DNA from: Zymoseptoria tritici IPO323
Lineage: Eukaryota > Ascomycota > Dothideomycetes > Mycosphaerellales > Mycosphaerellaceae
Reading direction: 5' to 3'
Assembly: GCF_000219625.1 (NCBI RefSeq)
Contig: NC_018215.1
Span: forward strand, 1,240,001-1,304,000
DNA: 64,000 bases
Shown here: positions 11,103 to 45,372 of the stretch, piece by piece
Numbering within the stretch: position 1 is the stretch's first letter
Layout of the letters: every line of letters begins with the position of its first letter
Program-made: the position numbers and the translations under genes
The notes under the pieces: model-generated
The model's input: only the letters and a program-made list of their open reading frames with translations
The model's database searches: none
Told to the model about the DNA's origin: nothing

Positions 11103-11115
11103 ATACACTTTCCTT
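11103..11115 (+). repeat. Target-site duplication of retroelement copy 1 (left)
   Basis: The 13-bp word atacactttcctt recurs exactly at 12022-12034, on the far side of the CAAA tail. A duplication of this length with a simple-repeat tail on one side is the signature of target-primed reverse transcription. Confidence 0.85.
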
Positions 11116-11195
11116 GGTCGGCGACGAGGAACACCTGTACGTGGTGCCGGCTACGAACCTGCGACGATACCGTCGTTGCAGAGCCAAGTTTCCTC
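11116..11195 (+). ncRNA. HDV-like self-cleaving ribozyme at the 5' end of copy 1
   Basis: Hand folding gives: P1 GGTCGGC (11116-11122) with GCCGGCT (11146-11152), two wobble pairs; P2 GAGGAA (11126-11131) with TTCCTC (11190-11195); P3 ACC (11133-11135) with GGT (11143-11145); L3 TGTACGT; P4 CTGCGACGAT (11159-11168) with GTCGTTGCAG (11172-11181), loop ACC; J4/2 AGCCAAGT, whose C-N-A-A-G motif would hold the catalytic cytosine. P1 begins on the first base after the target-site duplication, where such a ribozyme would cut. P1.1 is not obvious in this copy. See copy 2 for covariation. Confidence 0.75.
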
Positions 11196-11586
11196 CGGAG
11201 GATTGGAGAGGCCGTCGATCCCTCTTCCCTTACAACAACAACACGACCTAGAGGTACGCCTCCTATTGAAACACAAGCTACAGAACAACACGATTCGAAC
11301 GCCTCTACGCTACAAACGCTACAAACAAGAAGAAGAAGAAGAGGCAGTCCACTCTGTCCTATACGCGCACCTCCTCGAAATCCGAATCGAAATCGCATGT
11401 CCCTTCTCTAGTAGAGACGTCGTTGCCCTCGAAAGGAAGCATACATGCACTTCAAAGAGCTAGAACAGTTAGTGGAATCTATAACTCTACGATTAACCTA
11501 CGTAGCAGTATACGTTTAGAAGCGGCATACAGTTCCACAAAGGCATATTGAGGATAAGAGAAGGCAGCGAGTTGGACAGCTGCTTC

Positions 11587-11703
11587 TGCTTTTGTACTGC
11601 TTTTGCATAGCATTTTGCACTACTTTTGTACGGCATTTTGCACTGCTTTTGCACGGCATTTTGCACTGCTTTTGCACGGCATTTTGCACTGCTTCTGCAC
11701 TGC
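11587..11703 (+). repeat. 23-bp minisatellite in retroelement copy 1
   Basis: Roughly five imperfect copies of ctgcttttgcacggcattttgca-like units (23 bp), each made of two half-units ending ttttgca. Copy 2 of the element has only about two units at the same place (12594-12647), so the array changes length between copies. Confidence 0.8.
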
Positions 11704-12021
11704 ATTTCGAATTTGCAGCGTGCGTGCGTGCGAAGCGGAAGGATCCGCTGAAAATTCTGCAAAAGCTTGGCGCGAAAATTCTGCAGCCCCGGCTGCACGA
11801 CACTCGTTGGATTTCCTTTGTTTTGCGCTGCTTTTAAAGTCCTTCGGTAGATTCTGCTTTGCAGACTCTACCTTAGGCACGGGGTTTTCCCCTAAGGTTA
11901 AAGAATACCGAAAGAATTTGATTGTAAATAGATCTACTGCCTTGCGCGCAAGGCCGTCCTACATAGTCTTAGACTCCGAAAGGACGTAAATGGAACAAAC
12001 AAACAAACAAACAAACAAACA

Positions 12022-12034
12022 ATACACTTTCCTT
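12022..12034 (+). repeat. Target-site duplication of retroelement copy 1 (right)
   Basis: Exact second copy of the 13-bp word at 11103-11115; the following 26 bp (12035-12060) are the displaced right end of the hAT element. Confidence 0.85.
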
Positions 12035-12284: not shown

Positions 12285-12299
12285 GAGAGGCAATCTTGT
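12285..12299 (+). repeat. Target-site duplication of retroelement copy 2 (tail side)
   Basis: gagaggcaatcttgt recurs exactly at 13042-13056. The last three bases may belong to the tail (TTTG on this strand), so the duplication is 12 to 15 bp. Confidence 0.85.
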
Positions 12300-13041
12300 T
12301 TGTTTGTTTGTTTGTTTGTTTGTTCCATTTACGTCCTTTCGGAGTCTAAGACTATATAGGACGGCTTTGCTATAAAGGCAAAGCAGTAGATCTAGTTACA
12401 ATTAGATTTTTCGGTATTCTTTAACCTTAGGGGAGACCCCGTACCTAAGGCAATGCTAAAGGACTTTAAACAAATGCGAGACAAAGGAAATCAAACGAGT
12501 GTTGCAGCCTAAGGCTGCAGAATTTTCGCGCTAAGCTTTTGTAGAATTTTTAGCGGATCCTTCCGCTTCGCACATACGCTGCAAATTCGAATGCAAAAGC
12601 AGTGCAAAATGCCGTGCAAAAGCAGTGCAAAATGCCGTACAAAAGCAGCTGTCTAACTCGCTGCCTTCTCTTGTCCTTAATACGCCTTTGTAGAACTATA
12701 TGTCGCTTCTAAACGCATACAGCTACGCAGGTTAATCGCAGAGTTGTAGATTCTACCGACTGTTCTAGCTCTTTAAAGTGCTTCGGTTCGGATTTCGAGG
12801 AGGTGCGCGTATAGGGCAGAGTAGACTGCTTCTTTCTTCTTCTCGTTCGTAGCGTAGAGGGCTATTCGTTCGAATCGTGCTATTGTTCTGTTGTAGCTCG
12901 TGTTTCGAGGCGGATTTCGAGAAGGATTTCGGGCGGATTCGAGAGGTTTTCGAGGAGGTTTCTTCTAGACTGTCTTAGTTTCCCTTCTAAGGAAGGTACT
13001 TACGACGGCCACCGCGTGAAGGTGCAGTCTGTTCGGCCGTC
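12300..13041 (-). mobile_element. Non-autonomous non-LTR retroelement, copy 2, ribozyme-headed, (CAAA)n tail
   Basis: A 742-bp insertion in reverse orientation to copy 1, tail to tail with it and about 280 bp away. The tail reads (TTTG)n on the plus strand (about 12297-12323); the head is at 13041. It is similar to copy 1 over most of its length, including the ends, the ggacgtaaatggaac block before the tail and the minisatellite flanks, but it is shorter, has fewer minisatellite units and has diverged, partly by C-to-T type changes. Its 5' end is a ribozyme (12967-13041). No reverse transcriptase is encoded. Confidence 0.82.
12967..13041 (-). ncRNA. HDV-like self-cleaving ribozyme at the 5' end of copy 2
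   Basis: Read on the minus strand from 13041: P1 GACGGCC with GGCCGTC (7 Watson-Crick pairs); P2 AGACTG with CAGTCT; P3 ACC with GGT; L3 TTCACGC (7 nt as in copy 1); the GT after P1 could pair with AC in L3 to form P1.1; P4 CCTTC-CTTA-GAAGG; J4/2 GAAACTAAGA with the C-N-A-A-G motif. P2 shares no sequence with P2 of copy 1 yet both pair fully, P1 replaces a U.G by A-U, and P4 differs in length and sequence. The first base of P1 is the first base after the target-site duplication. Confidence 0.8.
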
Positions 13042-13056
13042 GAGAGGCAATCTTGT
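13042..13056 (+). repeat. Target-site duplication of retroelement copy 2 (head side)
   Basis: Exact repeat of 12285-12299, directly abutting the first base of the ribozyme. Confidence 0.85.
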
Positions 13057-42699: not shown

Positions 42700-45372
42700 C
42701 TACCAAATGCGCTTCGAAGCCATCACATACCGATCCACATGATCGAGCTTCATCTCATTGCTCGCGGCTCGGGCCTGTGCCTCGCTCTCCTTCTTTCTCA
42801 ACTTTTCCAAACCCTCCGGATCGTCTTCGTAAATCCATCTCCGCTTATCCTCATTCACCTCCACTGTTCCCCAGCCACCGACTCGCCGGCCATGGGTGTC
42901 AACGCTTTCTCGCTCGCGCTCCTTCATGCCGTTATACCTACCTCGCGCATACGACAGTAGCGCCATACCAAGGACCAACTTGAGCGCAAGCATGATAAGG
43001 TAGACCGCAAGGAAGACGATCACCATTGTAGCCAGCGCAATGAAGTCGTCGATGTTCCAAGATGCGATCGATGATGGACCGCCACTGTTTCCTGCGCCAA
43101 AGGACGATCGCCCGAGTGCTCTGCGGAAGACCTGGTCGATATGTTGCAGCGCAGCAGTGGTCACTGGTGTCGAAGCAGGAGGCTCGGCGATGGACGTGCC
43201 GGCCGACGGGATAGGGACAGGCATATGCGTGGCAAGAAACATGTGATATGTCTGCATGCAAGCTCGGATGAAGAGGCAGCTCAGTGGCAGCACCGGCAGG
43301 CCAAGTCGCTTGGTCAAGTTCTGGTCTGAAAATGCATGAGAGTAGTAGTCCTTGGCAAGTACGTCCAGAAATCGGCCGTAGATGTTGGGCTTGATGTTGT
43401 TGAACTTGTTGATATAGGCATGCTTGCACCAGTCGACCAGCGCCTCGCTTCCCAGTACAATGAGGAATGGTCCGAGGACTTCACCAGTCCACTTGGGGAA
43501 GATTGTGAAGGCCTTTGGGATGACGAAGCCTGATACGAGAGGTATTCCAGTTCCATTGCTCGAAAAGGCATCCATAGGACTGCCGCCGCCGCCGAGGGCG
43601 CTTGTAATGCTGATGCTAAGACCACCAACTTCGACGATATTTCGCAGCGCGATTATGAGCAGCATCAGCCAAAGTTGAAAACGTTCGACAACGTCCGCGC
43701 AGGTAATTTGGAAAAGATTCTCCTTTTCGAACTTCTTGAACACGGTGCCTTTGATCTCGACGAACTGGTTGCTCATCAGCAAGGTCAGGAGCGCATTTGA
43801 GTACGAGTTGACCGCAACGTTCAATGTCACAACCTGGTAGAAGAAGGCCGTAGCGTGGACCACGTTGTATATCAGTGCCACCAGAAACATTCCGAGGGGA
43901 CGCAAGACCTTGCTACGTCCGTCTGTGTCGCGCTCGAGAGTCTCCTTTGAGAACAGGCACTCCAGGATGTCTTGCCCAATTGCTGAAAGCAGTCGATCGA
44001 ACACCTCAATGACATTGTAAATGACATACAGTTTGATGGCGGCCTGTCCTCTGATAGAGTGATACATACGACTGGCATCGAACCACATCAGGATCACGCA
44101 GCTGCAGATGATGAGCAGACCCTGCAAGAGATCCGCCTTATGATTTGGTAGTAGTCCAGAAGGACTCGACTGGCTGCGTCGGTGTCGGAAGCCGGATCTT
44201 TGCTTTTTGGTCGTGGGTGATGGTGGCACTACTGATACATGCCCAGGCTTGCCAGAGGATCCGGCATGGGTATCTGCTGTAGGTCGCCTGTGCTTTTCTC
44301 CCTCCGCAACGATGGGGTCTGATAGACGCCGGCTGTTTGAACCGGATGTAATTCGCTGGCGTTGCCATATGCGGCCCAGTCCACCGTACACGAAGCTCGC
44401 CAGGTCACGCACCTCCTGTGCCATAGCCATGCCCGCCCACCGCGCGAAAATCACAACCGCCTTGAGAAACCGCAGAGGTAGGATGGTGAACGTATAAAGC
44501 CACGCGTCGAGACATGCGATCGTGCCAAAGCACAACACCTGTTCAAGACTCGGTGGGAGCAGCAGAAAGTTGAGCAGACGCTCAAACTTGATTCTGGAAG
44601 ACTCGTATGTGTAGTCGGCATTGCGCGAGCGATGAATGTAAAGCGCAGAAGGTCGATCAGAAGACAACTCAAGATGTAAATACGTGGGGAGTGATAGAGG
44701 AGGGATCGGAAGCATCGATGGCATGGGCGATGGGTGACTAGGGGAAGACTTGAAAGGGCCACTCGGTCTTCTGGTCTTGTCGTCGTCGATTCTCAGAGGC
44801 GGGAGCTGGTGTTTACCCTTGCTAGACTTCAAGGAAGATCGCGTCTGTTGTTCCACTGGGTTTGAGTTGGATCGAGCCGACGCACGCGGTCGTATGATTG
44901 TGGAAGGAGTCGCCGCCAGACTGGGCTCGCTCTCCAAGAAGGGTGATGGCGGATGTGATCGATCGGGCTCGAATGGAGCATCCAACGTAAGAGACCCGGC
45001 ATTGTCGTCTGGGTCCAAGATTGCGTCATCGAGTCCTCTTAATCCATCCAGGGGCCTAAGAGGTAGCGATTCCGGTGAAGTAGTCAACTCGTGAATCTGC
45101 GTGCCGGACAGCTTGAGCGCCCTCGTTTCGCTGCTTCGTCTTCTGTCTCGTTCACGCTCGTTTCCATTGTCTTGTTTCGCTTTACTCGTCACCTGCTGGC
45201 GATTGAGGTCTGGTTTATCGCGGTCCGCAGACAGAAGCGGGAAGGTCTGTGAGCCATTGCCATGCTCGCTGATCGGCGACAGAGCGGGAGTAATTAGTTG
45301 TCCATTCTGTTCGTTGACGTCTTTCTTCTCAAGAGCTCTCTCAATGGAAGGACTGGGAGAAGGGCTCATCAT
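42700..45372 (-). CDS. TAPT1/Emp65 family ER membrane protein
   Basis: Single exon, 890 residues. A 250-residue disordered Ser/Pro-rich N-terminus is followed by the family core: YESSRIKFERLLNFLLLPP, then several membrane segments (near EQVLCFGTIACLDAWLYTF, LLQGLLIICSCVILMWF, PLGMFLVALIYNVVHATAFF, LWLMLLIIALRNIVEV, PFLIVLGSEALVDWCKHAY) and a last span at VIVFLAVYLIMLALKLVLGM. The hallmark KLYVIYNVIEVFDRLLSAIGQDI is present. Yeast Emp65 acts with Slp1 in protecting folding proteins in the ER; TAPT1 is linked to cilia and membrane traffic in animals. A Glu/Arg coiled tail ends the protein. Firm for family, role inferred. Confidence 0.9.
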   Translation of the reverse strand: MMSPSPSPSIERALEKKDVNEQNGQLITPALSPISEHGNGSQTFPLLSADRDKPDLNRQQVTSKAKQDNGNERERDRRRSSETRALKLSGTQIHELTTSPESLPLRPLDGLRGLDDAILDPDDNAGSLTLDAPFEPDRSHPPSPFLESEPSLAATPSTIIRPRASARSNSNPVEQQTRSSLKSSKGKHQLPPLRIDDDKTRRPSGPFKSSPSHPSPMPSMLPIPPLSLPTYLHLELSSDRPSALYIHRSRNADYTYESSRIKFERLLNFLLLPPSLEQVLCFGTIACLDAWLYTFTILPLRFLKAVVIFARWAGMAMAQEVRDLASFVYGGLGRIWQRQRITSGSNSRRLSDPIVAEGEKHRRPTADTHAGSSGKPGHVSVVPPSPTTKKQRSGFRHRRSQSSPSGLLPNHKADLLQGLLIICSCVILMWFDASRMYHSIRGQAAIKLYVIYNVIEVFDRLLSAIGQDILECLFSKETLERDTDGRSKVLRPLGMFLVALIYNVVHATAFFYQVVTLNVAVNSYSNALLTLLMSNQFVEIKGTVFKKFEKENLFQITCADVVERFQLWLMLLIIALRNIVEVGGLSISITSALGGGGSPMDAFSSNGTGIPLVSGFVIPKAFTIFPKWTGEVLGPFLIVLGSEALVDWCKHAYINKFNNIKPNIYGRFLDVLAKDYYSHAFSDQNLTKRLGLPVLPLSCLFIRACMQTYHMFLATHMPVPIPSAGTSIAEPPASTPVTTAALQHIDQVFRRALGRSSFGAGNSGGPSSIASWNIDDFIALATMVIVFLAVYLIMLALKLVLGMALLSYARGRYNGMKERERESVDTHGRRVGGWGTVEVNEDKRRWIYEDDPEGLEKLRKKESEAQARAASNEMKLDHVDRYVMASKRIW

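Follow-up and report, generated by a model that had tools for sequence, protein, structure and literature searches.

What fixes the 5' end of a short retroelement that is scattered through a fungal genome? The question is raised by a 64,000-nucleotide stretch of Zymoseptoria tritici IPO323 (NC_018215.1, positions 1,240,001 to 1,304,000; the whole stretch is called the window here), which carries two copies of such an element, copy 1 and copy 2, on opposite strands. For a gene elsewhere in the window (42703–45372, minus strand), the nearest hit with a name is a protein of Zymoseptoria brevis, 96% identical. The two copies very probably belong to one non-autonomous family, mobilized by a long interspersed nuclear element (LINE) and composed of an interchangeable head of the first 75–80 bases, a fast-changing body and a tail shared with the LINE, where the head, of type A or B, would be a self-cleaving ribozyme of the hepatitis delta virus (HDV) type. 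The family is present in hundreds of dispersed genomic copies. A preliminary description of the sequence had placed copy 1 in the context of a short retroelement, a view upheld by its target-site duplications (TSDs), its LINE-shared tail and the many genomic copies.

Read directly from the sequence, bases 11116–11195 of the forward strand, which form head A of copy 1, make up a complete HDV-like nested double pseudoknot. All the parts that the preliminary description had proposed are present, namely P1, P2, P3, an L3 of 7 nt, a P4 of 10 pairs and the J4/2 strand (Table 1), and P1 does start directly after a 13-bp TSD, in a register that is repeated across genomic copies. Both pairs of P1.1 are possible in head A (GT with AC, giving G-C and U-A), joining L3 to the two bases 3' of P1. 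Head B of copy 2 forms a separate HDV-like fold and its P1 contains seven pairs, as in head A.

A loose HDV-like descriptor is unspecific, matching at 23 start positions on both strands of the 64 kb, so that the occurrence of the fold somewhere is unremarkable and its location at base 1 is the striking part. Anchored at base 1, the loose descriptor matched 1, 0 and 0 of 20,000 dinucleotide shuffles of head A, head B and a head with a short P4, A2, respectively. The strict descriptor, which was drawn up only after the fold had been seen, matched none of the 20,000 shuffles of each of these heads when P1 was anchored at base 1, and 1, 0 and 0 of them when any position was allowed.

The 5' register was surveyed at 106 head places, of which 104 are distinct (47 A and 57 B). 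TSDs of 10 nt or more flank 93 of the 104 copies, and their right edge falls on ribozyme base 1 in 54 of these and overruns it by 1–3 nt in another 33 (together 87 of 93). For one A copy (L095) the TSD script returned an odd repeat, and separate reading sets the TSD edge on base 1. The duplications are mainly 13–14 nt long and begin with A or T in 91 of the 93 cases. In a head-independent sample of 20 copies, chosen by their tail from 40 matches listed (19 others were already in the set and one was omitted), a complete head is found in 18 (5 A and 13 B), while L106 and L118 are headless; the B body was listed at another 20 places, and head B is present at every one of them.

The proposed mechanism starts from an element RNA that would be made from outside, by read-through or as part of a host transcript, unless an unrecognized promoter drives it. 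In this RNA the ribozyme would fold and cut directly 5' of base 1, whereby the flanking RNA would be lost and a 5'-OH end left. The endonuclease and reverse transcriptase of the LINE would bind the tail and copy the RNA by target-primed reverse transcription as far as the cleaved 5' end, and every new copy would hence begin at ribozyme base 1, between its TSDs. Self-cleavage of the heads is predicted from their sequence, and the source of transcription and the mobilization by a LINE are presumed; together, self-release at base 1 and copying by the LINE would account for the TSD register, the preserved fold and its invariant cytosine, and the common tail.

Preservation of the fold was followed by aligning 37 distinct heads, 14 of type A and 23 of type B, with 500 shuffles and slid versions as controls. 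The cells of P1, P2 and P3 are paired in 98.1% of cases, compared with 79.2% after shuffling and 27–57% after sliding. Cells with double changes number 126 versus 48 in shuffles and the covariation score is 0.600 versus 0.269, both values lying above all 500 shuffles. Nine pairs are doubly changed between heads A and B, three in P1 and six in P2. Within the A heads, P4 contains one compensated pair, as well as a variant in which both arms are shortened.

The cytosine of J4/2 that was put forward as catalytic in head A, at 11184, proved invariant. Genome-wide counts, taken over 39,686,251 bases in 21 contigs, gave 93 sites with the J4/2-P2 pattern of head A, all 93 with the C and with C or T as its neighbor, and 164 sites with the pattern of head B (100 of them listed), all 164 with the C, as a search for any other base at its place gave no site, and with a variable following base, making 257 of 257 for the pooled heads; the patterns demand intact neighbors, and decayed heads fall outside these counts. 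The same C is found in all 104 distinct fetched heads. The genome contains the P3-L3 motif CACCTNNNCGNGGTG 272 times and its reversed control 19 times.

The chief rival explanation sees in the head a promoter or transcription-start cassette by which base 1 becomes the 5' end, and in the fold an incidental or inactive feature. The head is strongly conserved, as a promoter might be, and in trypanosomatids the Pr77 head activates transcription (PMC8190864) while also holding a ribozyme (PMC4035085). Moreover, the partner LINE, called L124, has a uniform 5' end in which no ribozyme was detected: 39 of the 40 matches listed start at one query base, the family begins with CATCGACATCC in all six junctions read, and the descriptor gave no hit over L124 301–1300 on the strand tested. 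However, a promoter has no need to preserve the pairing of P1 and P2 across two unlike sequences, nor of a joint shortening of the two P4 arms or an invariant J4/2 cytosine next to a variable base. A promoter-set 5' end is accordingly held to be improbable.

The conservation of the head was profiled in full-length copies, 44 with head A and 50 with head B, with 300 sampled pairs each. Mean identity is 95.6% (A) and 95.5% (B) in the first 80 nt and 92.4% (A) and 89.9% (B) in the last window, and lies at 47–88% in between, save for one A window, which has large indels and reaches 7%. A full-length alignment of 17 of the tail-chosen copies (4 A and 13 B) gives the head an identity of 98.8% in A and 92.5% in B, compared with 92.7% (A) and 91.8% (B) for the best body window and 6% (A) and 52% (B) for the worst; the tail used for selection stands at 99% (A) and 96% (B). 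The head is well conserved, yet in B it stands little above the best body window.

Several observations weigh against a ribozyme at the head of the element. The Rfam scan of the window gave no match at the gathering score. In a permissive scan the HDV-F-prausnitzii family RF02682, whose structure line as printed contains no P2 pairs, aligns from base 1 to head A with 11.2 bits, third behind two unrelated families, and to head B with 19.7 bits; its gathering score is 44, and heads A and B and a third type described below all remain under it. Rfam scores by themselves would not have settled the ribozyme call. RNAfold recovered P1 for heads A and B, did not give P3 as drawn and lacked P1 for two of the three sequences of the third type; this program cannot see pseudoknots and so by itself does not show one. 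In head B only one of the two P1.1 pairs forms. Set against chance expectation, the pair counts come out above the shuffled and slid controls by most measures, but none of the public Rfam models reaches its cut-off.

Some of the comparative measures and of the register data point in the same adverse direction. Neither the count of doubly changed pairs nor that of further pair types is above chance (453 and all 500 of the 500 shuffles, respectively, are as high), and within head A the pair counts lie scarcely above chance, 21 of the 500 shuffles reaching the same level. Since heads A and B form two clades, few evolutionary events may stand behind the nine double changes; the ribozyme assignment is independent of homology between the two heads. 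No TSD of at least 10 nt is found in 11 of the 104 copies, and in five B copies (L082, L086, L111, L119 and L123) the TSD ends 1–2 nt before base 1, the extra bases being possibly non-templated additions at integration. The head identity in the full-length set is inflated because most of its copies were picked by a head match. Finally, the uniform 5' end of a LINE without a detected ribozyme means that such an end per se does not require one.

The 3' part of the element connects it to L124, a LINE of two overlapping long open frames, in which no match to RNase H was obtained and whose second open frame has proteins of Sclerotinia, Bipolaris and Pyrenophora among its named relatives. It is the final 150-odd nt of this LINE that match the short element (Table 1). 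The arms of a hairpin in this tail differ between the LINE and the short-element versions yet remain paired, and the AAAC end is common to both, although 11 of the 94 distinct tails do not fit the hairpin pattern. No similarity to L124 was found for the element body, and the 5' end of the element is not common to L124, the sole LINE family examined. The median length of the element is about 820 nt with head A and about 790 nt with head B, and a Pfam search of copy 1, covering four sense frames, matched no protein domain. The body of copy 1 also contains a 23-nt tandem unit (TTTTGCACTGCTTTTGCACGGCA-like, 11590–11727), which was reported as five overlapping 46-nt repeats.

The varied TSDs, the simple-repeat 3' end, the LINE-shared tail and, in copy 1, the lack of a Pfam match to a reverse transcriptase are features of a non-autonomous LINE-mobilized element, that is, a short internally deleted element (SIDE) or a short interspersed nuclear element (SINE) in the wide sense. 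TSDs, a LINE-derived tail and a short length would also fit an ordinary SINE driven by RNA polymerase III, with the likeness to the pseudoknot coming from another structured RNA, and 90 of the 94 full-length copies contain, in antisense, a B-box-like GTTCGAATC (GATTCGAAC on the element strand), which resembles the B-box/T-loop consensus. On the sense strand, GWTCGANNC occurs in none of the 94 copies, and the HDV-specific features are positioned exactly from base 1. A tRNA origin was rejected, as a tRNA scan of the window found none. An ordinary SINE is consequently considered highly improbable.

A further alternative concerns only the origin of the family and is compatible with a ribozyme-headed element: the short element may be a SIDE in the strict sense, an internally deleted LINE whose own 5' end bore the ribozyme. 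Such an origin has been described for the R2 SIDEs (PMC3414825), NARTc counts as a truncated form of L1Tc (PMC4035085), and the 3' end of the fungal element is indeed LINE-derived. On the other hand, the start of the L124 family and the lack of a descriptor hit behind it, given above, and a body without similarity to L124 do not agree with it, as far as this one LINE family is concerned, which makes the deletion origin possible but rather unlikely.

Head types are not confined to separate lineages of tails. A tree built from the 3'-terminal 200 nt of the 94 copies, whose bootstrap had not settled and in which row B_L097 is an outlier, requires 25 changes of head label, compared with about 31 when the labels are shuffled, and at least eight are forced by well-supported branches. 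Heads and tails reassort, a process that would occur by template switching or recombination. It can be suggested tentatively, at less than even chances, that the ribozyme is a swappable 5' cassette: at least two HDV-like heads of unlike sequence would have been put repeatedly on one body and tail family, maybe from cellular or orphan loci such as a low-copy third type, so that a promoterless element could ride arbitrary host transcripts and parasitize a ribozyme-free LINE.

This third HDV-like type, L150, has the full fold and lies outside the short element. A genome search with RF02682, in which 61 of 3,726 candidates were scored, gave one match of 31.5 bits (E 0.0087), under the cut-off; in the control, 8 of 14 genomes had matches at E up to 10 and none above the cut-off. 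The similarity of L150 to its relatives L151 and L152 is limited to the ribozyme plus 1–4 nt upstream. Among these three sequences P2 contains one compensated pair, and both P1.1 pairs form in all of them through CA with TG, where head A has GT with AC.

Table 1. Positions of the element copies, their parts and related sequences (window coordinates unless a locus is named).
Feature	Position	Strand	Remarks
Head A, HDV-like ribozyme fold	11116..11195; predicted cleavage 11115/11116	+	direct reading, shuffles, RF02682 alignment, comparative pairing
P1 5' strand, head A	11116..11122, partner 11146–11152	+	GGTCGGC/GCCGGCT, 7 pairs including 2 wobbles
P2 5' strand, head A	11126..11131, partner 11190–11195	+	GAGGAA/TTCCTC; double-sided A-versus-B change in 6 of 6 pairs
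P3 and L3, head A	P3 11133–11135/11143–11145; L3 11136–11142	+	ACC/GGT; TGTACGT, 7 nt
P4 hairpin, head A	11159..11181	+	10 pairs; one doubly changed pair within A heads; two-arm shortening in L104, L117
Predicted catalytic C in J4/2, head A	11184	+	AGCCAAGT; C in 93/93 genomic A-head pattern sites
TSD, upstream, copy 1	11103..11115	+	ATACACTTTCCTT, 13 nt
TSD, downstream, copy 1	12022..12034	+	ATACACTTTCCTT, 13 nt
Body, copy 1	11196..11867	+	no L124 similarity, tRNA or Pfam match (four sense frames) detected
3' tail, copy 1	11868..12021	+	80% identity to L124 over 157 columns; compensated hairpin; AAAC-repeat end
Copy 2	13041 to 12298	-	second element copy of the window; opens with GACGGCC, unlike head A
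Head B, copy 2, separate HDV-like fold	12967..13041; base 1 at 13041, catalytic-type C at 12978	-	RF02682 alignment, shuffles, comparative pairing
Body and LINE-like tail, copy 2	12298..12966; tail 12298–12447	-	tail 77% identical to L124 over 153 columns
TSD, 5' side, copy 2	13042..13054	-	AAGATTGCCTCTC
TSD, 3' side, copy 2	12285..12297	-	
LINE L124 (G000:C14)	318–5909 of L124		about 5.6 kb; endonuclease and reverse transcriptase domains in the second of its two long open frames, which overlap
Third, low-copy HDV-like type, L150	L150:70–156 (G000:C3:3261629)	+	full fold, 7-pair P2; outside the short element

The transposable element annotation of Z. tritici includes LINE names such as RII_Cassini and RIX_Lucy, and its curated library holds 22 LINE, 1 SINE and 105 unclassified families (PMC10652580, PMC9970103, PMC7014611, PMC12612061). 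Since only about 2 SINE copies per genome are reported on average (PMC12612061), the element family is probably filed outside the SINEs, as judged from names and counts. The word "ribozyme" has no occurrence in the main texts of these four papers, one of them having been searched for the whole word only.

No HDV-like retroelement of a fungus was recognized in searches of the open-access literature, the classic surveys of ribozymes in subscription journals lying outside these searches. Hammerhead ribozymes have reportedly been found in fungi (PMC3088659). The preliminary description named no earlier case on a short non-autonomous fungal element; outside fungi, short non-autonomous elements that carry such a 5' ribozyme have already been described (PMC3414825, PMC4035085). 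If the heads are active, HDV-like 5' processing of retroelements extends to fungi, and to hundreds of scattered copies instead of one target site, and the ribozyme is uncoupled from the LINE that would mobilize the RNA. Two natural heads on shared bodies, together with many near-identical variants, make the role of a 5' ribozyme in retrotransposition directly testable. As the public models miss heads A and B at their cut-offs, fungal genomes may harbor an overlooked class of ribozymes.

The closest counterparts are the R2 and R2/R1 hybrid SIDEs of Drosophila, which are non-autonomous and combine a 5' HDV-like ribozyme with a 3' end recognized by a LINE (PMC3414825). The R2/R1 hybrid is similar also in that its ribozyme and 3' end stem from different LINEs and its TSD is 14 bp (PMC3414825). 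Unlike these SIDEs, which reside in 28S rDNA and are co-transcribed with rRNA (PMC3414825), the fungal copies are dispersed, carry two reassorting heads and share their tail with a LINE that, in the family examined, has no detected ribozyme.

The trypanosomatid NARTc, RIME and SIDER1/2 elements with Pr77/L1TcRz are likewise short and bear an HDV-like 5' ribozyme, and several of them are active in vitro (PMC4035085). There, however, the autonomous L1Tc/ingi elements bear the same Pr77 head (PMC4035085), while the only LINE family examined in the fungus yielded neither head A nor head B. The bacterial RF02682 ribozymes share with the fungal heads an alignment that starts from base 1, the P3-L3 motif and the CNAAG of J4/2, but differ from them to the extent that the heads score far below the gathering value of that family. 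The present family differs from the known SIDEs and trypanosomatid elements in its fungal host, in its many dispersed copies, in the reassortment of its two heads and in a partner LINE on which no ribozyme was detected.
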